A DNA stretch of 47,972 bases. It comes from Candidatus Hydrogenedentota bacterium (lineage in GTDB: Bacteria > Hydrogenedentota > Hydrogenedentia > Hydrogenedentales > CAITNO01). Position 1 is the first letter of the stretch. Each line of letters begins with the position of its first letter. Below, piece after piece: positions 3 through 47,191 of this stretch. The notes beneath the pieces were generated by a model. It saw only the letters and a list, made by a program, of their open reading frames with translations, was not told the origin of the DNA and searched no databases. The stretch is from positions 1-47,972 of the forward strand of contig JAAYBJ010000139.1 of assembly GCA_012730105.1 (NCBI GenBank). Direction: 5' to 3'. A program made the translations under genes and the position numbers.

Positions 3-1463
3 GACCGGAACTATTACGCCCTCGCCCTGGCCTGTTCCACCGGCATCCTGAACGATGTGCCCTACTCCTACTGCGCGCACTGGGGCATGCCCGGCGCGAT
101 CAGCCATCTGCGCAGCGCCCTGGTAAACGTCTTCGGCGCCTCGGGTGCGCCCTACTTCAGCATGGTGCAGGACATGGAACACCGCGATGTGGACGTGCTG
201 ATGCTCTACCCGCTGGACCTGGTGGCGGTGAACGACCGCTTCGGCAGCTGGATGACCCAGTACGGCTACGCGAATATGGTAACCCAGGAGAAACTTCTGG
301 AACTGGGGCGGGTGGAGAATGGCGCGGTGGTCCTGGGAGGCCGCCGCTTCACCATGCTGGCGACCCTGTTTGAGCCCTTCCCTGATACGGCACTTTTCGA
401 TATGATGCGGCAGCTGGCCGAACAGGGCGGTCGTGTCATTTGGTCCGGCCCGCCGCCCGTGATCAACCGCAAGGGCGAGCCCGCCCTGGAAGCCTGGCGC
501 GCGCTCACCGGAACGGAATATACACCCGCGCCCGAGGACGGCCTCATCCTGCCCGGGCGCAACATTGCCTTCACCGGTTCCCTGTCGGGCGTGCCGGAAA
601 TGACCGTGTTGACGGACCTGCTCGTGGACCGGGTCTATCCGGTGAGCCCCGGTATGGGCGCGGAAACCGTCGCGCAGATCGGCAAGCATGTGGTCGGCGC
701 GCACCGCAAACTGGGCGCAGGCTCGGTGACGGTGCTGGGGTTCCGTCCCCGGGACGACCAGTCGAAAAGCCTGGGCTATGAGGCCCGGCACTGCTTTGAG
801 ATTTTAAACGCTCTCGGCACCTATCCCGCAACAGGTGTTTTCCCCGACGTCAATGACAACACGGAATACCTTTCGCGAACCTCAGACTACCTGTGCTGCC
901 GGTTCCCGAACGGCGCGCTGGCCATAGCGCCACACCTGCGCGAACTGGAAGAAAACTGGCCGGGCGGCTTCGCGCGAAAGAAAGAAGAAGATGACAAACT
1001 GCTGGAAGGCCTTACGCTGCCTGACGGGCGCATTCACCTGGAAGGGTTCAAGGTGAACGGCAAGGAAGTCTCCTATGACGGCAGCCATGCCCTCACCTTC
1101 CGCACGAATGACGCCAATGAACTTATCGCCTTCGCCGGGTGTACTGCTCAGGCCATCACCATCAACGGGAAAACCACCCAGTTCGCCGACCGGCCGATGC
1201 CGCTCGTTGCCTGGGCGCCTGTGCGTGAAGATCGGCGCGTGCCCGACGGCGCAGCGCTGCTTCTCTTTTACCACGGGGAAGGGGAACTGCGCCTGCCCGC
1301 GCCCGGCCTGCAGGGACAGATTCAAGCCTTCGCGCAGGGTCCGATGCCGGGCAGCCGGGGCGCGGCGCTGACGGCCCGCGTCGAAAACGGCCTGCTGATT
1401 ATCAACGGGGAGGCAAAATTCGCCAACCATTGGATTTATGTGGTTCCCGTAGCCGGCACATGA
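3..1463 (+). CDS. Putative glycosidase-like protein, C-terminal part (5' end outside window)
   Basis: The reading frame is open from base 3, so the gene starts upstream of the window and only its last 486 codons are visible. The GTG at 57 is internal and has no ribosome binding site. The visible part begins with a region containing MLYPLDLVAVNDRFGSW, which resembles the end of a catalytic barrel. It continues into an alternating alpha/beta stretch (FTMLATLFEPFP, GGRVIWSGPPP) like the amidotransferase-like trimerisation domain found after the barrel of GH42-type beta-galactosidases. The remainder looks beta-rich. A role in carbohydrate breakdown is inferred from this fold resemblance and from the other glycan enzymes nearby; the substrate is unknown. 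No catalytic residues can be assigned without the missing N-terminus. Confidence 0.6.
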   Translation, partial: DRNYYALALACSTGILNDVPYSYCAHWGMPGAISHLRSALVNVFGASGAPYFSMVQDMEHRDVDVLMLYPLDLVAVNDRFGSWMTQYGYANMVTQEKLLELGRVENGAVVLGGRRFTMLATLFEPFPDTALFDMMRQLAEQGGRVIWSGPPPVINRKGEPALEAWRALTGTEYTPAPEDGLILPGRNIAFTGSLSGVPEMTVLTDLLVDRVYPVSPGMGAETVAQIGKHVVGAHRKLGAGSVTVLGFRPRDDQSKSLGYEARHCFEILNALGTYPATGVFPDVNDNTEYLSRTSDYLCCRFPNGALAIAPHLRELEENWPGGFARKKEEDDKLLEGLTLPDGRIHLEGFKVNGKEVSYDGSHALTFRTNDANELIAFAGCTAQAITINGKTTQFADRPMPLVAWAPVREDRRVPDGAALLLFYHGEGELRLPAPGLQGQIQAFAQGPMPGSRGAALTARVENGLLIINGEAKFANHWIYVVPVAGT

Positions 1464-16411: not shown

Positions 16412-16849
16412 ATGAAACTTTCCACACGAGCACGATACGGTCTGCGCGCCATGGTTGAGCTGGCGCGCAACCCCGAGGGCGCCACGGGCCGCGTAATCGC
16501 GGAAAACCAATACCTGCCCGCCGCGTACCTGGAACAGATCCTGGCGCGCCTGCGTACGGCAAAACTGGTGTCTTCCATACGGGGAGCCCGGGGCAGGTTC
16601 GTGCTGGCGTGCGAAGCGGAATCCATCACCCTGGCACAGATTTTGGAGGCCGTGGAAGGACCCATTGTCATCGCCGAATGCGATGATGTTCCCTATTGCC
16701 ACGCCAATCCCTCGGTATGCGTGCTGCGCAAGGTATACGCGGGCGCGAACAAGGTGCTCTATGATTACCTGAACGGGATTACCCTGGCTGAACTGGCCCG
16801 ACAGCAGGCCGAACAGGAAAGCCCCAGGCAGGTGGATTACTCGATTTAA
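16412..16849 (+). CDS. Rrf2-family transcriptional regulator, Fe-S cysteine type
   Basis: A 145-residue winged-helix regulator. It opens with MKLSTRARYGLRAM, the hallmark Rrf2 start, and continues with YLEQILARLRTAKLVSSIRGARGRF, here in pieces, the recognition helix and wing. Three cysteines in CDDVPYCHANPSVC (Cys90, Cys96, Cys103) match the spacing that holds an iron-sulfur cluster in IscR, NsrR and RsrR-like proteins. It may therefore sense iron-sulfur status, nitric oxide or redox. No iron-sulfur assembly genes are adjacent, so targets are unknown. No Shine-Dalgarno precedes the ATG and the promoter predicts a nearly leaderless mRNA. The stop codon overlaps that of the convergent esterase gene in the shared bases TTAA. 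Confidence 0.9.
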   Translation: MKLSTRARYGLRAMVELARNPEGATGRVIAENQYLPAAYLEQILARLRTAKLVSSIRGARGRFVLACEAESITLAQILEAVEGPIVIAECDDVPYCHANPSVCVLRKVYAGANKVLYDYLNGITLAELARQQAEQESPRQVDYSI

Positions 16850-18990
16850 CCGCCGAACACTTTTCGTATAGCCTTCAACCGACGCAGCCCCCAACCCTTC
16901 GTAGGCGCGATAAAGCCCCCTTCCCCGAACTCATTCCACGCGTAAATGGTGAGCGCCTTGATGCCCGGCAGGCCGAGACCTTCATGCACGGCAAGATCCG
17001 CCGCCGCCTGTCTCAGGGTGGTCTCCCATTCCCGGTCGTTGGGCAGGGAGAAGCACGCCCGCGTGTCCGGCCAGGGATGGGGTGCCCAGCCCGCTCCGAT
17101 AACAGGCATATATGGGATTGCGTCATTTACATGCTGTAAACGCCCCTCGCGAAGAAAGTCCGCCAGGTTCCAATAGGGATAGTCCTTCTCCTCCTTTTCC
17201 AGCGGAGGCACATCCATGTAGGTGCCCGTGAAATCGAAAAGTTGAGCGGCATTGTGGTCGGGACCAACGGCTTCGTGGGCGCCTACGCCGCCTCCAATGA
17301 TCAATTCACCAAGCCCCTTTTTGCGGGCCGCCTCGCGAAGAGCATCCAGCCGGGCGCGGCATCGCGCGAGGTCATTCCCGTTCTGTGCCACGAAATACCG
17401 GGCGCCATGGACTTTGAACACGGGCCTGCCGTTCACCCGAAGGTAACTCGGATGTTCCATGCAACGGGTCCACAAGGCAATGCACGCCTCCCATTCCTCG
17501 TCCGTCGTCACCTCGTATGGCGGATGGTTGCAGAATTCGATCATGAATTTCATGCGATGCGCCTCGGGGGATGCCATGAAACATTCAAGCCCCCGGCTCA
17601 GGAAACGGGCATTGGGCTCGCGCTCGGCGTCCGGCGGATTGTAGTACCAGAGAATGGAAAAGAAGTCCACGCCGTATCCCGCCGCCGCAACAATCTCCTG
17701 GTTCACCGTTTCCTGCGTGTTGTAGGCGCCCAGGAGGGGCACCCGCCCCGGGAAGCGGGGCCGCCAGTCATTCCCGTCCGCATCGTGCCACTTGTTCGGC
17801 AGGGGTTCCCACCATCCGGCAAAGTAGGAAACGCCCACCAGCGTCGTCGTCATGACGGGGGCGGTGCCGTGCATGTGGCTGTGAAAAAAATCCAGTGCCG
17901 CATCCCAGGAGGGACCGCCTTCCGGCCCGTTCGGATCCACGTGATCGGCGTCCACAAGGGCGAGTTGCAGATTGTGCGCGCAACCGAAGCGCTTGTAGGC
18001 CGGCAGGGCGGCCTCCACAGCAGCACGTTCGCCATCCGGATTACCCCAGGCGTCTTTTAATCCCGCATGGATATACAGAGGGCGGGGCGCCACAAGGGCA
18101 TGCAGCCAGTGCTGGTCGAAAGGCAGTTCGTCTTCACGACCGTCAAAGGTAAAAATGCGTTCATGCAGCCAATACCGTTCCAGTAACTGGTTCAGCCGCT
18201 GCGCCCCGTCGCCGCGCACCCGGTACAGGGCGCTGCCGCCCATGCCCGACATGTGGGGAAACACCGCGGCGAAACGGGCATCCATCGCCCCGGCAAGCAG
18301 GGCCGACTTGCCGCGGCGGGAATGCCCCCAGACCGCCACCCGTTCCGCCCGGACTTCCGGCAACGTTTCAAGCCAGTTTAAAGTGACGGAACATCCCCAG
18401 GCGGCCACGGCAACCGTGCCCCAGTCATAGCCTGGGTAGGCGTCCGGGGCAGCGCGTAGCGCCGGGTCTTCATAACTCGCCAAAGCATTGTGGTCAAACC
18501 CGGCAAAAGCGCAACCGCGACGGAGGACGCGCTGCACCACGCCGTTTTTTAAAAACGGGTCTTCCCACCAGACCGGCTCGATGGCCAGCACCACGGGACA
18601 AGGGCCGGCCGACATCTTCGGCAACCAGCAACCGGCCTGCATCTTTAGGGTTTCTCCGGGGCCGAAGGCCAGTGTGGCGGAAATCTTTACCGCCTGCAGC
18701 CCGCTATCCGGCAATACAAGTTCTTCCCGGGACTGTTCCAGAACCTTGACCGGCGGCACGGGCGGTACCGTTCCGTATTGCCAGTGCAACAGGGTTTGCA
18801 GCATTTCAGCCCGGCGGAGCTTCCAGTCCACATTCGTTTCCTGAGACGCCTTTTCAAGAGTCAAGGCCGCCGGCAGGGGCGCGGCAAACGCCTTGCCGGA
18901 CAGCGCCAATGACAGCAAAAGCATGCACGGCATCAAGGGTAAAGAATACACTGACCCCATGGTAAAGCCCTTCCGACGAAATAGATTCAT
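16846..18990 (-). CDS. Secreted two-domain enzyme: CE15-like esterase fused to GH99/WbsX-like domain
   Basis: A 714-residue exported protein. The signal peptide has MNLFRRK followed by a hydrophobic stretch ending KAFA. ATG 18990 is chosen for that charged start; ATG 18960 has a better GGAAGGG and remains possible. Residues of about 40-380 form an alpha/beta hydrolase of the CE15 glucuronoyl esterase type. The nucleophile motif is GHSRRGKSALLAG with Ser224; DAWGNPDGE and DADHVDP lie further on, near the catalytic histidine. Residues of about 385-714 resemble GH99-like/WbsX barrels (GVSYFAGWW, FFSILWYYNPP, TIYAWNEFGEGGF). CE15 enzymes cut lignin-glucuronoxylan esters; GH99-like domains act on mannose-type glycans. 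The fusion implies attack on a branched glycan, but the substrate is inferred. Confidence 0.75.
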   Translation of the reverse strand: MNLFRRKGFTMGSVYSLPLMPCMLLLSLALSGKAFAAPLPAALTLEKASQETNVDWKLRRAEMLQTLLHWQYGTVPPVPPVKVLEQSREELVLPDSGLQAVKISATLAFGPGETLKMQAGCWLPKMSAGPCPVVLAIEPVWWEDPFLKNGVVQRVLRRGCAFAGFDHNALASYEDPALRAAPDAYPGYDWGTVAVAAWGCSVTLNWLETLPEVRAERVAVWGHSRRGKSALLAGAMDARFAAVFPHMSGMGGSALYRVRGDGAQRLNQLLERYWLHERIFTFDGREDELPFDQHWLHALVAPRPLYIHAGLKDAWGNPDGERAAVEAALPAYKRFGCAHNLQLALVDADHVDPNGPEGGPSWDAALDFFHSHMHGTAPVMTTTLVGVSYFAGWWEPLPNKWHDADGNDWRPRFPGRVPLLGAYNTQETVNQEIVAAAGYGVDFFSILWYYNPPDAEREPNARFLSRGLECFMASPEAHRMKFMIEFCNHPPYEVTTDEEWEACIALWTRCMEHPSYLRVNGRPVFKVHGARYFVAQNGNDLARCRARLDALREAARKKGLGELIIGGGVGAHEAVGPDHNAAQLFDFTGTYMDVPPLEKEEKDYPYWNLADFLREGRLQHVNDAIPYMPVIGAGWAPHPWPDTRACFSLPNDREWETTLRQAAADLAVHEGLGLPGIKALTIYAWNEFGEGGFIAPTKGWGLRRLKAIRKVFGG

Positions 18991-19109: not shown

Positions 19110-19139
19110 TTGACACGGCGCATTTTCGTGTGTTATTAT
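19110..19139 (+). promoter_or_regulatory. groES-groEL promoter
   Basis: TTGACA (19110-19115) and TATTAT (19134-19139) are 18 bases apart, a near-consensus housekeeping promoter. Transcription should begin near 19146, inside the CIRCE element, so a bound repressor would block it directly. Confidence 0.75.
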
Positions 19140-19162
19140 CACTCACACAGGGTGAGTGCTAA
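19136..19162. promoter_or_regulatory. CIRCE element (HrcA operator)
   Basis: The left arm TTATCACTC (19136-19144) and right arm GAGTGCTAA (19154-19162) are separated by 9 bases. This matches the CIRCE consensus with one change in the left arm. HrcA is the known repressor for this site and GroEL assists its folding. hrcA itself is not in the window. Confidence 0.93.
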
Positions 19163-29029: not shown

Positions 29030-30247
29030 CTATTCCTTACCGTTGCGCTCCACAAGCGGCGCATCCAGGCGCTGGAAATCGGGCATGACACCCACCAGCG
29101 GGCGCCCGTAGCGGATGAATTCTTCGGTGATGCCGTTGCCGGCTTCGTTGATAAATTCGTCCGGCATGTTCTTGGTATGGCGCGCCACCGTTTCCAGGGG
29201 CGTCAGGAAATAGGAAATGGCATAATCGCCTACGCGCTTCATGGCCACGGAACCGTCAAGGCCGTGGCGGACAGCATACCGCACAGCCTTCTCGCCCACG
29301 GCGCGCGCTTCCGCCTGGTCCACTTCGCTGACGCAGCCCAGGAAGCTGCGCTGCAGATAGCCGAGCGTGTCCGCGCGGACGCGTTTGATCTTCGCCACGG
29401 ACTTGATGTGCTGGGCAAGCATGTCGCCCAGGGCGCCCGTGCCGGACAACTGCACGTTGCCGTGGGAGTCCTTCTCGCCGCCGGTGAACTGGGCCGCGAT
29501 GGCCTCGCCCTTTTCGTCCGCGATGCCTTCGGACACGGCCACGACGCAGCGCCCGTACTTCTGGTAAACCGCCTGAACGTCCTCGGTGAATTTCGCCACG
29601 GAGAAAGGCCGTTCGGGAAGATAAATAAGATGGGGGCCGTCGTCTTCATACTTGCGGCCGAGCGCCGCGGCAGCGGTCAGGAAACCGGCATTCCGGCCCA
29701 TGACCACGGCGATGTACACGCCCGGGATGGCACGGTTGTCCAGGTTCGCGCCGGCAAAGGCCTGGGCCACGAACTTCGCGGCGGAGCCATACCCGGGGCA
29801 ATGGTCCGTAACCTTGAGGTCGTTGTCAATGGTCTTGGGCACGTGGATGACGCGCAGGTCATAACCCACGGCTTCGGCCTGCTGGTTCACGATGCGGCAG
29901 GTGTCGGCACTGTCATTGCCGCCGCAATAAAAGAAGAAGTGGATATTATGGGCCTTGCAAACGTCGAATATCTTCGCGCAGTAAGCCTCATCCGGTTTGT
30001 CGCGCGTGGACAGCAACCCAGAGGAGGGCGTGTTCGCCACGGCTTCAAGGTTGGTGTTCGAAACGTCGGTAAGATCGACGAATTTCTCGTTAATAACGCC
30101 GTTGACGCCATTGAGCGCCCCGTAGATATGCGTCACCTGGGGGAACTGGCGCGCTTCAAGCACCACGCCCACCACGCTTTGGTTGATAACCGCCGTCGGG
30201 CCGCCGCCCTGGGCAACAAGCACTTTGCCTTCCAGTAATTTGGCCAT
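29030..30247 (-). CDS. pfp: 6-phosphofructokinase, PPi-dependent type
   Basis: A 405-residue phosphofructokinase. The N-terminal GGGPTAVIN loop and CGGNDSADTC (residues 108-117) replace the GGDGS of ATP-dependent enzymes. An Asp in the position after GGN/D is the known marker of pyrophosphate use because it blocks the ATP site. PKTIDND (137-143) and MGRNAG contact fructose 6-phosphate and are intact. The reaction is reversible, serving glycolysis and gluconeogenesis. AAGGAAG lies about 7 bases before ATG 30247, so the longer in-frame version is rejected. The gene stands alone with its own promoter and terminator. PPi use is inferred from residues, not tested. Confidence 0.88.
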   Translation of the reverse strand: MAKLLEGKVLVAQGGGPTAVINQSVVGVVLEARQFPQVTHIYGALNGVNGVINEKFVDLTDVSNTNLEAVANTPSSGLLSTRDKPDEAYCAKIFDVCKAHNIHFFFYCGGNDSADTCRIVNQQAEAVGYDLRVIHVPKTIDNDLKVTDHCPGYGSAAKFVAQAFAGANLDNRAIPGVYIAVVMGRNAGFLTAAAALGRKYEDDGPHLIYLPERPFSVAKFTEDVQAVYQKYGRCVVAVSEGIADEKGEAIAAQFTGGEKDSHGNVQLSGTGALGDMLAQHIKSVAKIKRVRADTLGYLQRSFLGCVSEVDQAEARAVGEKAVRYAVRHGLDGSVAMKRVGDYAISYFLTPLETVARHTKNMPDEFINEAGNGITEEFIRYGRPLVGVMPDFQRLDAPLVERNGKE

Positions 30248-40309: not shown

Positions 40310-41712
<1,403 letters not shown>

Positions 41713-41988: not shown

Positions 41989-43818
41989 ATGGAACCAACG
42001 TCTCACATACCACCAGATTCGGTGGGGATCGTAACTACGCACCAGGCGCTTCTAGAAGAAACCCACGACGGGTTTATTCTGGAAAGCGGCGCGAAGCTGG
42101 GCCCCATCACCGTCGCCTATGAGACCTACGGGCAACTCAACGAATCGCGGACCAACGCGGTGCTGGTGTGCCATGCCCTGTCGGGCGACGCGCACGCGGC
42201 GGGGCGTTATTCGGCGGAGGACGCCAAACCGGGGTGGTGGGACAGCATGATCGGGCCAGGCAAGGGTATCGACACGGAGAAATACTTCGTCATCTGCTCG
42301 AACTTCCTGGGCGGTTGCAAAGGCACCACCGGCCCCGCCAGCATCAACCCCGAAACAAACGCCCCCTACGGGCTGGACTTCCCCGTGATCACGGTCGGCG
42401 ACATGGTTCGTGTGCAAAATGCGCTGGTGCGGCAATTGGGCATCGAACAACTGCTGTGCGTGCTGGGCGGCTCCCTGGGTGGCATGCAGGCGCTGGAATG
42501 GGCGACGCGCTTTCCCGAGGCGCTGCGCTCCGTCATGCTCATCGCGACCAGCCACGCGACGGGTGCCCAGCAAATCGCCTTTGACGCCGTGGGGCGCAAT
42601 GCCATCCAGGCGGACACGGAATTCCAAAGCGGTGATTACGCGCCGGGCAAAGGCCCGCGCAGCGGACTCGCCATCGCGCGGATGCTCGCCCACATCACCT
42701 ACCTGTCCGACCAGTCCATGCGTCGCAAGTTCGGCCGCACCCTGCGCAACGGCGACCGCCTGGGCTACCATTTCGAGAGCGAGTTCAATGTGGAAACCTA
42801 CCTGGACCACCAGGGCGAGGGTTTCGTGAATCGCTTTGACGCCAACACCTATCTGTACGTCACCAAGGCCATGGATTATTTTGACATCGCCGCGGCTTTC
42901 CCCTCGCTCGATGCGGCGCTGGCGCGCGTCAAAGCCTCCGTGCTGGTCGTTTCCTTCACCTCGGACTGGCTGTTCCCGCCATACATGTCCCAGGAAATGG
43001 TATACGCCCTGGCCAGGAACCGGCGGCATGCCAGTTACTGCAATATTCGCTCTGATGCGGGCCATGACGCCTTTCTACTGGAAGTGAAAGACCTGTCCCG
43101 CCTGATCTCCGGCTTTCTCATCCATACGCTGCACCCGGAACGGAGCTGCGACAACTGTCCGCCCAAGCCCTGTGACGGGCAGGATACGGAAACTAAAAGC
43201 CCCGACGGTAACCGCACCCTGTCCCAGTCCCGGCGCGTTGATTACGACATGATTGTCGATCTCGTGGACGAGAATAGCCGCGTGCTCGACGTTGGTTGCG
43301 GCGAGGGCGAACTCCTGTGCCGCCTGCAGCGCCGTCGCAATGTAACCGGTCTCGGCATTGAAGTGGACCAGGAAAAAGTGATCCGCGCCATCGCCTGCGG
43401 CATCAACGTCATACACGCCAACATCGACAAAGGCCTGGCCGAACTGCCCGACGATTCCTTTGATTACGTCATCCTGAGTATGACCCTGCAGGTTCTCAAG
43501 AATCCCGCCTTGGCACTGAAAGAAATGCTGCGTGTCGGCAAAAAATGCATCGTGACTTTTCCCAACTTCGGCCATTGGCGCGTGCGCGCCGAACTGGCCT
43601 TCCTCGGGCGCGCGCCCGTCACCTCGCAGCTGCCTCACAGCTGGCACGAATCCCCCAACCGGCACGTCCTTACTGTCAGGGACTTCCGTGCTTTCTGCGC
43701 CCAGTTCCAGTTCGGCATCGAAAAGGAAATTTTCCTGCACGACAACGGCCAGACCCGGGTGCTGCCCAACCTCCGCGCGGAAGAAGCATTGTATGTGCTG
43801 AGAAAAAGTCCTGCCTGA
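41989..43818 (+). CDS. metX: Homoserine O-acetyltransferase MetX fused to MetW methyltransferase-like domain
   Basis: A 609-residue fusion. Residues of about 20-385 are MetX, an alpha/beta hydrolase acylating homoserine: nucleophile Ser162 in GGSLGGMQ, Asp326 in FTSDWLFPP and His359 in SDAGHDAF. A short linker with three cysteines (CDNCPPKPC, 387-395) follows. Residues of about 413-605 are MetW, a SAM-binding fold with VLDVGCGEGELL (432-443) and TLQVLKNPALALKEMLRVG. MetX and MetW are usually separate, adjacent genes, and MetW is thought to be needed for MetX function in several bacteria. Here one continuous frame encodes both, with no stop or frameshift. Together with metY upstream it makes homocysteine. 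Confidence 0.9.
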   Translation: MEPTSHIPPDSVGIVTTHQALLEETHDGFILESGAKLGPITVAYETYGQLNESRTNAVLVCHALSGDAHAAGRYSAEDAKPGWWDSMIGPGKGIDTEKYFVICSNFLGGCKGTTGPASINPETNAPYGLDFPVITVGDMVRVQNALVRQLGIEQLLCVLGGSLGGMQALEWATRFPEALRSVMLIATSHATGAQQIAFDAVGRNAIQADTEFQSGDYAPGKGPRSGLAIARMLAHITYLSDQSMRRKFGRTLRNGDRLGYHFESEFNVETYLDHQGEGFVNRFDANTYLYVTKAMDYFDIAAAFPSLDAALARVKASVLVVSFTSDWLFPPYMSQEMVYALARNRRHASYCNIRSDAGHDAFLLEVKDLSRLISGFLIHTLHPERSCDNCPPKPCDGQDTETKSPDGNRTLSQSRRVDYDMIVDLVDENSRVLDVGCGEGELLCRLQRRRNVTGLGIEVDQEKVIRAIACGINVIHANIDKGLAELPDDSFDYVILSMTLQVLKNPALALKEMLRVGKKCIVTFPNFGHWRVRAELAFLGRAPVTSQLPHSWHESPNRHVLTVRDFRAFCAQFQFGIEKEIFLHDNGQTRVLPNLRAEEALYVLRKSPA

Positions 43819-44551: not shown

Positions 44552-47191
44552 ATGACACTGGAGGCGATGGTAGTAATCAGTATGACCTTGGGCGCGCTTT
44601 CGAGCGAATCCGCAATACGGCCCGAATACCTGGACACGCCCCTGACCGCAGGGGATTGGGACGCCCGTTATTTTGACGTCCAGGCGTCGAGGCCCTTTGA
44701 GATCAACCTGACGCCCGCGCGGTGGGTGTGGATGCCGTCCGCACGTACCCTCTCCAATACGTTCATCCTCTTCCGCAAAGAATTCGACCTGCCGGGCAGC
44801 GTGCCGGTGCGGGCGCGCGGATGGGTCACCGCGGACAGCCGCTATCGGCTGTCGGTAAACGGAGTGCGGGTGCAATGGGGCCCGGCGCCTTACGACCCGC
44901 GCTATCAGGAGGCCGATGGCTTCGACATCGCGCCGCTGCTCCAACCCGGTAAAAATGTCATTGGCGTGGAGGTGCTTCATTACGGCCTGGGCGACGGCAC
45001 CTGGCCGGCCGGTAAGCCGGGTATGATTTTTCATGCCGTGCTGGAATTCAAGAATGGCGCGAAACTGAACGTAATGTCCGATGACTCCTGGAAAGTTTTT
45101 CTCGACCGCGCCCACGCGCCAGGTCAACATAAGCGCTGGTACCTGCGGGCGCTTCAGGAAGAATTCGACGCGCGGCTGCACCCCTACGGCTGGGATACCC
45201 CCGAGTTTGTGGTGGGGAGGGAATGGCTGCATGCCATGCCTCTCATCTGCGGTCCGGACAAGCCCGCCGCGTGCAGCAACTATGAAAGCAATGACCTGAT
45301 CGACCGCATCCAGGCGGAAAACGGCTCGCTGCGGGCGCGCCAGATACCGCTCATAAAAGAGTTCATCGTTCCAGCCAAAGGACTTGCCGATTCCGGCAGG
45401 GTGCGCTGGCGGCGCGATCCCCGCGACTGGTTCGACATGCGAATTCCCGATTCCTTTACCATTATCGAAGAACCGATCGCCCAGGTCCTTCCGGAGGATG
45501 CCGGCGTGACCCTGCCCGCAACGCCGAGGGGCGAAGGGGTTTTCGCCACCTTTGAATTCACCGAGCAGATGGTTGGCTGGCCGCAATTCACCATCGATGC
45601 GCCCGAAGGCGCCATCATCGAGATGATGGTCCAGGAATCGCACGCGGAGGACGGCCCCGCCTGGATGGACACCCACTTCTTCGCCTGGACACGGTTCGTT
45701 TGCCGGGAAGGCATCAACGTATTTGAGCCCTTCGATTATGAATCCTTCCGCTGGGTGCAGCTGCACGTGCGCAACGCCTCGCGTCCCGTCTCCATTTCCG
45801 GAGTGGGCGCGCGCAGGCGGATCTTCGACTGGCCCAACCCCGTGCAGGTGACGTGCGCCGACCCTGCGCTACAACGGCTTTTTGACGCCACGGCCAACAC
45901 CCTCAACAACAGCGCCATCGATGTCGTGGTGGACGGCATGGGCCGGGAACGCCAGCAGTACAGCGGCGACTGCGGCCCGCAACTCTTCGCGATCCGCTAC
46001 GGTTTCGGGGAAACACGCCTGCCCGCACGGTACCTGCGCACCTTCAGCGAGGGCCTGACCCCGGAAGGCTATTTCCTGGACTGCTGGCCCGCCTTCGACC
46101 GGCTCGCGCGGGTCATGCAGAAACAGGTGCAGGCGGCCTATTGGGGCCCCATTCTTGACCACGGCATCGGCTTCACGTTCGACTGCTGGAATCACTATCT
46201 CGAAACGGGCGATCTCGAAAGTGTGACCGAAGCCTACCCGCGCCTGCTGCGTTTCGCCGGCTATCTCGAATCCATACTTGGGAAAGACGGCCTGCTGCCC
46301 GTTGAGGACCTCGGCATCCCGACCGTTTGGATTGACCATGACGCCTACAAGAAGCCGGCGCACAAACAATGCGCCTTTAACCTGTATGCGGCGGCCATGT
46401 TCCGCCACGCCCTCGCACCGCTGGCCAAAGCCTTCGGCGACAACGAACAACATAAAGCCTTCCAGGACGCCGGCGACGCTCTCCTGGCGGCGGTGCAGAC
46501 CCGGTATTGGGATGAGGCGCGCGGCATGTTCGTGGCCAACCTGCCCTGGGCGGAGGAAGAAAAAGAAATCCGCCTGTGCGACCGTTCCCTGGCTACCTCC
46601 ATCCTTTTCGATCACTGTCCGGATGGCAAAACGGGCGCCGCGCTGAACGCGCTCGCAACCTGTCCGCCGGAAATGGGCCTGTCCTATCCCGCGAACGCTT
46701 ACTGGCGTTACTGGGCGCTGTCGAAACTGTCACGGACGGACGTGGTGCTCAAGGACTTTCGGGAGCGCTGGGCCACCATGGATTCCGTGCTGCTGAACAA
46801 CACGCTGCAGGAAAACTGGACCGCCCGGCCGGATTCCACCGCCGAGTGGAGCCATTGCCCCGTTTGTCCATTATATATTCTCTACATGGATATCCTGGGC
46901 ATCCGTCCCACAGCGCCGGGTTTCACCGCGTGCGATGTGCGCCCGCAGCTGGGCGACATCGGCGATATCGAGGCCACGGCCCATACCGTACAAGGCCCCT
47001 TCACGTTCAAGGCCCTTCGGAAGGGACAGGAATATGACGTCAGGCTGACCGTTCCCAAGGGCTGCCAGGCAACCCTGATATTGCCGGAATCCCTGCCGTG
47101 CGAGTTGAAACCATCTCCCAGTCCGGTGCCGCCCGGGTTAAACGCTTATCAACTGCGGGAAGGCGCCGAAAACCGTTTCAAGGCGATTTAA
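44552..47191 (+). CDS. Alpha-L-rhamnosidase-like protein (GH78 type)
   Basis: An 879-residue protein. Residues of about 50-215 look like the carbohydrate-binding sandwich of GH78 (FILFRKEFDLP, AADSRYRLSVNG-like TADSRYRLSVNGVRV). A further beta region runs to about 440. The (alpha/alpha)6 barrel follows, with DGMGRERQQYSGDCGPQ, corresponding to the family's acidic catalytic region, and CDRSLATSILF. The closing beta domain has PTAPGFTACDVRPQLGDI, a strong GH78 feature. It should release terminal rhamnose from glycans or pectin side chains. GGGGAG lies about 7 bases before ATG 44552. The N-terminus is only mildly hydrophobic, so export is uncertain. A related family such as GH106 is less likely. 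Confidence 0.8.
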   Translation: MTLEAMVVISMTLGALSSESAIRPEYLDTPLTAGDWDARYFDVQASRPFEINLTPARWVWMPSARTLSNTFILFRKEFDLPGSVPVRARGWVTADSRYRLSVNGVRVQWGPAPYDPRYQEADGFDIAPLLQPGKNVIGVEVLHYGLGDGTWPAGKPGMIFHAVLEFKNGAKLNVMSDDSWKVFLDRAHAPGQHKRWYLRALQEEFDARLHPYGWDTPEFVVGREWLHAMPLICGPDKPAACSNYESNDLIDRIQAENGSLRARQIPLIKEFIVPAKGLADSGRVRWRRDPRDWFDMRIPDSFTIIEEPIAQVLPEDAGVTLPATPRGEGVFATFEFTEQMVGWPQFTIDAPEGAIIEMMVQESHAEDGPAWMDTHFFAWTRFVCREGINVFEPFDYESFRWVQLHVRNASRPVSISGVGARRRIFDWPNPVQVTCADPALQRLFDATANTLNNSAIDVVVDGMGRERQQYSGDCGPQLFAIRYGFGETRLPARYLRTFSEGLTPEGYFLDCWPAFDRLARVMQKQVQAAYWGPILDHGIGFTFDCWNHYLETGDLESVTEAYPRLLRFAGYLESILGKDGLLPVEDLGIPTVWIDHDAYKKPAHKQCAFNLYAAAMFRHALAPLAKAFGDNEQHKAFQDAGDALLAAVQTRYWDEARGMFVANLPWAEEEKEIRLCDRSLATSILFDHCPDGKTGAALNALATCPPEMGLSYPANAYWRYWALSKLSRTDVVLKDFRERWATMDSVLLNNTLQENWTARPDSTAEWSHCPVCPLYILYMDILGIRPTAPGFTACDVRPQLGDIGDIEATAHTVQGPFTFKALRKGQEYDVRLTVPKGCQATLILPESLPCELKPSPSPVPPGLNAYQLREGAENRFKAI

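Follow-up and report, generated by a model that had tools for sequence, protein, structure and literature searches.

The stretch of DNA analysed here (the window, 47,972 nucleotides of a contig from a Candidatus Hydrogenedentota bacterium) carries a single intact reading frame that encodes, in order, a predicted signal peptide, a CE15 esterase domain and a WbsX/GH99-like barrel (Table 1). The frame and its coordinates, the leader and the two motifs picked out in an earlier note on this DNA, GHSRRGKSA (residues 222-230) and WNEFGEGG (residues 685-692), are all present in the sequence. The start of the gene is not set by the frame, which is open from position 19146, and two starts are plausible: the ATG at 18990, which the earlier note had used, and the ATG at 18960, for which a Shine-Dalgarno-like GGAAGGG lies approximately 7 nt upstream and is better placed than for the first. 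With either start the protein keeps its signal peptide.

Table 1. Features of the fusion gene and its immediate surroundings (positions in the window; residue numbers count from the ATG at 18990).
Feature	Position	Strand	Evidence
Rrf2-family regulator	16412..16849	+	PF02082, 9e-34; convergent with the fusion gene, which it overlaps tail to tail by 4 bp
Fusion gene, 714 aa	16846..18990	-	Open frame; fused ortholog (L008; 63% identity, 681 aa)
WbsX/GH99-like (beta/alpha)8 barrel, residues 384-714	16849..17841	-	PF14307, GH99 profile matches, model
Interdomain linker, residues 376-383 (TAPVMTTT), ~8 aa	17842..17865	-	Same-length linker in the fused ortholog
CE15 alpha/beta-hydrolase domain, residues ~46-375	17866..18855	-	PF22244, 2.6e-31; OtCE15A, 2e-36; residue mapping; model
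Predicted signal peptide, residues 1-36, ending ...SGKAFA, cleavage before AP	18883..18990	-	Sequence read by eye
CIRCE (HrcA operator) of groESL	19136..19162	+	Lies between groES and the fusion gene; one mismatch (chance expectation for the window, 0.02)

The neighbours of the fusion gene are mostly housekeeping genes (rrf2, groESL), and no polysaccharide-utilisation cluster surrounds it. The CIRCE element lies approximately 145 bp upstream of the divergent start of the fusion gene, and CIRCE is present at groESL of two congeners (G001 and G003) too. Apart from the fusion gene, the one evident glycosidase in the window is a divergent GH78-type alpha-L-rhamnosidase (44552-47188, plus strand, 58 bits). 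Also on the plus strand, a 609-aa frame at 41989-43815 joins an alpha/beta-hydrolase (PF00561), which its position and fold make MetX-like, to MetW (PF07021, 217.6 bits) and is likely a MetX-MetW fusion; a PLP enzyme of cysteine/methionine metabolism lies upstream at 40381-41709. Two further long frames of the window (57-1460 and 29177-30235, both plus strand), and a 668-aa frame near the fusion gene of G001 (L039, 6109-8112, minus strand), match no Pfam family at E 1e-4.

The earlier note had proposed two distinct domains in one protein, and on this point it is borne out: the N-terminal half is recognised as CE15 by PF22244, by solved enzymes and by fold, and the C-terminal half as WbsX/GH99-like by PF14307 and by GH99 structures, so that the Pfam matches and the separate structural matches rule out a single family spanning both. 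Since PF22244 scores 109.7 bits against a cut-off of 27 and PF14307 scores 30.6-34.9 bits against a cut-off of 25.1, these are not chance matches, and we have very little doubt about the identity of either domain. The two halves were modelled separately, so that all model values given below apply to each half and not to their relative orientation.

In the N-terminal half, the match to PF22244, the glucuronoyl esterase family, covers residues 112-336 (2.6e-31), and solved CE15 enzymes are matched with E values down to 2e-36 for OtCE15A. The AlphaFold2 model of this half (pLDDT 74.8, pTM 0.83) superimposes on OtCE15A with a Z score of 37.8 and an rmsd of 2.5 over 322 aligned residues; the top 32 rows of the structure comparison are all CE15, and the next is a putative acetyl xylan esterase at Z 23.6. 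The domain thus shares with CE15 its sequence, its alpha/beta-hydrolase fold and a Ser/His/acid triad with the oxyanion arginine in a G-x-S-R-x-G motif. In the alignment, S267, R268, K271, D356 and W358 of OtCE15A correspond to Ser224, Arg225, Lys228, Asp313 and Trp315 of the fusion protein, whereas E290 falls on Met247 and E305 on Asp261; the domain also carries Gln293. His350 was not aligned directly with His408 of OtCE15A, but every close relative that is aligned as far as this position keeps it, and in the model Ser, Asp and His follow successive strands in the manner of alpha/beta-hydrolases. A search of the fusion protein against NCBIfam returned a sub-threshold match only.

Two positions are in use for the triad acid of CE15 enzymes, both of which are occupied in some bacterial enzymes (PMC11096219). 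OtCE15A is one of these, whereas the fusion protein has Met247 at the position of the fungal-type glutamate. Given that MZ0003 lacks the fungal-type glutamate and relies on Asp332 (PMC5722869), which is equivalent to Asp356 of OtCE15A (PMC6069808) and hence to Asp313 here, the alignment makes Asp313, rather than the fungal-type position, the likely triad acid. Asp313 is invariant among the relatives of this half and occupies the position that MZ0003 uses, and for these reasons we reject the idea that the substitution by Met247 leaves the esterase dead.

The C-terminal half alone matches PF14307 (WbsX) above the gathering score (34.9 bits, 1.6e-8) over model positions 131-350, and from the weakness of this score we regard it as a divergent WbsX branch. 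All 11 members of its family alignment match PF14307, and the profile built from them finds GH99 structures in the PDB at E values of 8e-7 to 1e-5. In this profile alignment the NE-x-x-E motif of the family falls on E333 and E336 of BxGH99, giving Glu687 and Glu690 as the putative catalytic pair, and Tyr591 aligns with Tyr252 of BxGH99; Asn686, Glu687, Glu690 and Tyr591 are invariant in all 11 rows. The catalytic residues of both halves (Ser224, Arg225, Asp313 and His350; Glu687, Glu690 and Tyr591) are thus present on alignment. The model of the C-terminal half is an eight-stranded barrel (pLDDT 72.3, pTM 0.80), and GH99 or GH99-like chains fill the first 29 places of its structure comparison (Z 18.0-21.6), which speaks for a common (beta/alpha)8 fold rather than for membership. 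The loop that bears Glu687 and Glu690 has a pLDDT below 50, so the placement of the pair within the barrel rests on sequence.

The barrel fold, the E-x-x-E pair and the Tyr252 equivalent are held in common with the GH99 endo-alpha-1,2-mannosidases and mannanases (BxGH99, BtGH99, MANEA). In contrast to these enzymes, the motif reads EFGE or EYGE rather than EW[H/G]E, structural identity is approximately 12-14%, and the curated GH99 model, PF16317, scores 14.5 bits against a cut-off of 33; because this score falls short, the sequence does not place the C-terminal half in GH99 proper. From sequence and model we infer a GH99-like retaining hydrolase. The alpha-mannan activity suggested in the earlier note gains no specific support from these data; what they support is GH99-type catalytic machinery. 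Barrels of the WbsX type that carry NE-x-x-E are also found on IMG/VR contigs classed as viral (L065-L082), in some cases within frames of 690-766 aa; these are possibly glycan depolymerases borne on virions.

The same fusion is found in a sister species (G001), in an independent assembly, where it shares 63% identity over 681 aa, sits at the same locus, between rrf2 and groES, and overlaps rrf2 by the same 4 bp. When a tree is built for each half, the fused copies group together as sisters (support 100/99 and 97/99), a placement that fits one single fusion. Between the two copies the dN values of the halves are 0.27 and 0.25 and dS is saturated, while over 15 codons around the linker dN is approximately equal to dS, and the linker of G001 has equal length but a different sequence. 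Both halves are therefore under purifying selection and the linker drifts. In a third congener (G003), groES follows rrf2 after approximately 190 bp with no gene between them; thus, within the genus, the fusion gene has been either acquired or lost. The fused form is present in only two of the four species of one genus among the 68 genomes of the phylum that we searched, all of which belong to one order, so that searches of order, class and phylum cover the same 68. Comparison of the full-length protein with wider genome contigs, through an exact-peptide seeding that is insensitive, gave only distant relatives of the N-terminal half at 28-33% identity and no fused protein, a result that tells little about bacteria outside the phylum. 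Of plasmid records, 18 matched, none covering 80% of the query, and the 15 listed match the N-terminal half only.

Outside the fusion, each half has close relatives that stand alone in the same 68 genomes. Those of the N-terminal half are in three genomes (G004, G023 and G050; 55-64% identity) and those of the C-terminal half in six others (G009, G012, G014, G038, G053 and G067; 57-65%). Most of the closest stand-alone homologs have a similar leader of their own; that of G053 has no obvious leader. None of the 68 genomes has close (at least 55%) separate copies of both halves, and hence nothing suggests that one activity depended on the other before the fusion.

The surroundings of two stand-alone genes are worth recording. 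In G023 (L043, 5511-14924), 134 bp separate the CE15 gene from a GH78 alpha-L-rhamnosidase gene upstream of it, and a sulfatase and a URO-D-family gene are close by; in G053 (L045, 307-2697) the WbsX gene lies approximately 150 bp downstream of another URO-D-family gene. CE15 enzymes of rhamnosidase-bearing loci in Bacteroidota have been proposed to act on rhamnogalacturonan uronic esters (PMC10807430). We treat the CE15-GH78 neighbourhood of G023 as a lead to a substrate and not as evidence for the fused enzyme. The genome that carries the window also encodes, on another contig (C107; L002, 1324-3519), a 732-aa protein in which a second alpha/beta-hydrolase, of DLH type, comes after a CE15 domain. 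CE15 matches in frames of 735-800 aa are met repeatedly in the phylum.

Based on these observations, we propose that the fusion protein is a secreted (periplasmic or extracellular) bifunctional carbohydrate-active enzyme whose halves act together on one polymer, and we give this overall explanation a probability of roughly 45%. The N-terminal half would hydrolyse an ester on the uronic acid side chain of a polysaccharide, with Ser224 as nucleophile, Asp313 and His350 completing the triad and Arg225 in the oxyanion hole. The C-terminal half would cleave an alpha-glycosidic bond by the GH99 route, in which Glu687 as base would assist the 2-OH of the substrate to form a 1,2-anhydro sugar and Glu690 would serve as acid, with retention of anomeric configuration. 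Through the tether, one protein could remove an ester and cut the glycan that the ester shields. Its origin would be a single joining of two secreted enzymes that stood free in the same phylum, and the gene lies between rrf2 and groES in one genus. That both halves are catalytically active is quite probable; that they act on the same polymer is an even call and the least secure step, because no synergy was seen between the halves of other two-enzyme proteins with CE15. The housekeeping neighbours, the lack of a genome in the sample with close separate copies of both halves, the moderate confidence of the models (pLDDT 72-75) and Asp261 in place of Glu305 of OtCE15A all count against the overall explanation.

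The closest competitor, a possible though less than probable one, is that both halves are active but on different polymers or bonds, the fusion securing only their co-secretion and co-expression. The closest relatives of the halves do live apart, in different genomes and mostly with signal peptides of their own, and other multicatalytic CE15 enzymes, among them BeCE15A-Rex8A, the CE15-GH8 protein of Bacteroides eggerthii, showed no intramolecular synergy (PMC8417218). However, the fusion predates the split of the two species, whose fused proteins are now at 63% identity, and selection has since preserved both halves.

It is quite improbable that the barrel is no hydrolase at all, being instead a glycan-binding module or a glycosyltransferase. 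Pfam does name PF14307 "glycosyltransferase WbsX", we found no assay of any WbsX member in the open-licence literature, and the top structural match, OpGH99A (5ngw), aligned without an E-x-x-E pair, so that degenerate barrels of this fold exist. Yet the pair and the Tyr252 equivalent are invariant throughout the family alignment, and the protein is predicted to be secreted to where nucleotide-sugar donors are not expected. Very doubtful, too, is a classical inverting mechanism as in GH71 in place of the GH99 epoxide: although GH71 barrels follow close behind GH99 in the structure comparison (Z 16.8-17.7), GH71 differs from GH99 in having Asp rather than Glu as its first acid and Trp rather than Tyr as the adjacent aromatic (PMC12394665), and the C-terminal half, with Glu and Tyr, has the GH99 set. 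Finally, although elsewhere in the phylum each half has a gene to itself, the presence of the same fusion at the same locus, with the same linker length, in an independent assembly of a congener rules out, for practical purposes, two neighbouring genes joined through an assembly or frameshift error.

We return to the bifunctional enzyme acting on one polymer and its place among known systems. The bacterial CE15 esterases OtCE15A (6syr), PvCE15 (8qcl) and MZ0003 (6ehn) resemble the N-terminal half in fold (Z 34-38), and OtCE15A shares with it the serine, arginine, lysine, tryptophan and aspartate described above; the fusion protein differs from all three in being joined to a GH99-like barrel. 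CE15-glycosidase fusions are themselves already known as a kind. BeCE15A-Rex8A, called very rare by those who described it (PMC8417218), resembles the fusion protein in holding a CE15 domain and a glycosidase in one chain, in the same order and with a very short linker. In Caldicellulosiruptor, CkXyn10C-GE15A combines GH10 and CE15, together with CBMs, in one chain (PMC7151638, PMC8280721). The sequence and folds described here likewise place two catalytic domains in one polypeptide, with the activity of the barrel inferred. In contrast, the partners in BeCE15A-Rex8A and CkXyn10C-GE15A are xylan-directed GH8 and GH10 enzymes from other phyla, whereas the partner here is WbsX/GH99-like, and within WbsX (PF14307) the C-terminal half lies above the Pfam cut-off but is divergent, secreted and fused to an esterase. 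The earlier note did not know this combination as a described enzyme, and we too found no description of CE15 joined to a WbsX/GH99-like barrel in the open-licence literature, outside which most subscription journals lie; as far as that literature shows, the partner is new.

Pfam labels the WbsX/GH99-like family a glycosyltransferase, yet the GH99 catalytic pair is retained in those of its members that this analysis covered, of which several are secreted. As CE15 is a family with ready model substrates, a natural fusion to it offers a handle on the substrate of the WbsX barrel, and the CE15 partner suggests that this substrate is a uronic-acid-bearing polysaccharide. We also consider, as an unlikely but consequential extension, that the barrel actively hydrolyses glycans with a specificity undescribed in GH99, and that the protein attacks an esterified glycan whose ester has to come off before or during the cutting of a neighbouring alpha-linkage. 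If this were true, it would provide the first activity for the WbsX group and a pointer to an undescribed uronic ester. With the fusion, the short list of glycosidases known as partners of CE15 gains a new kind, an effect that stays modest until activity is measured.
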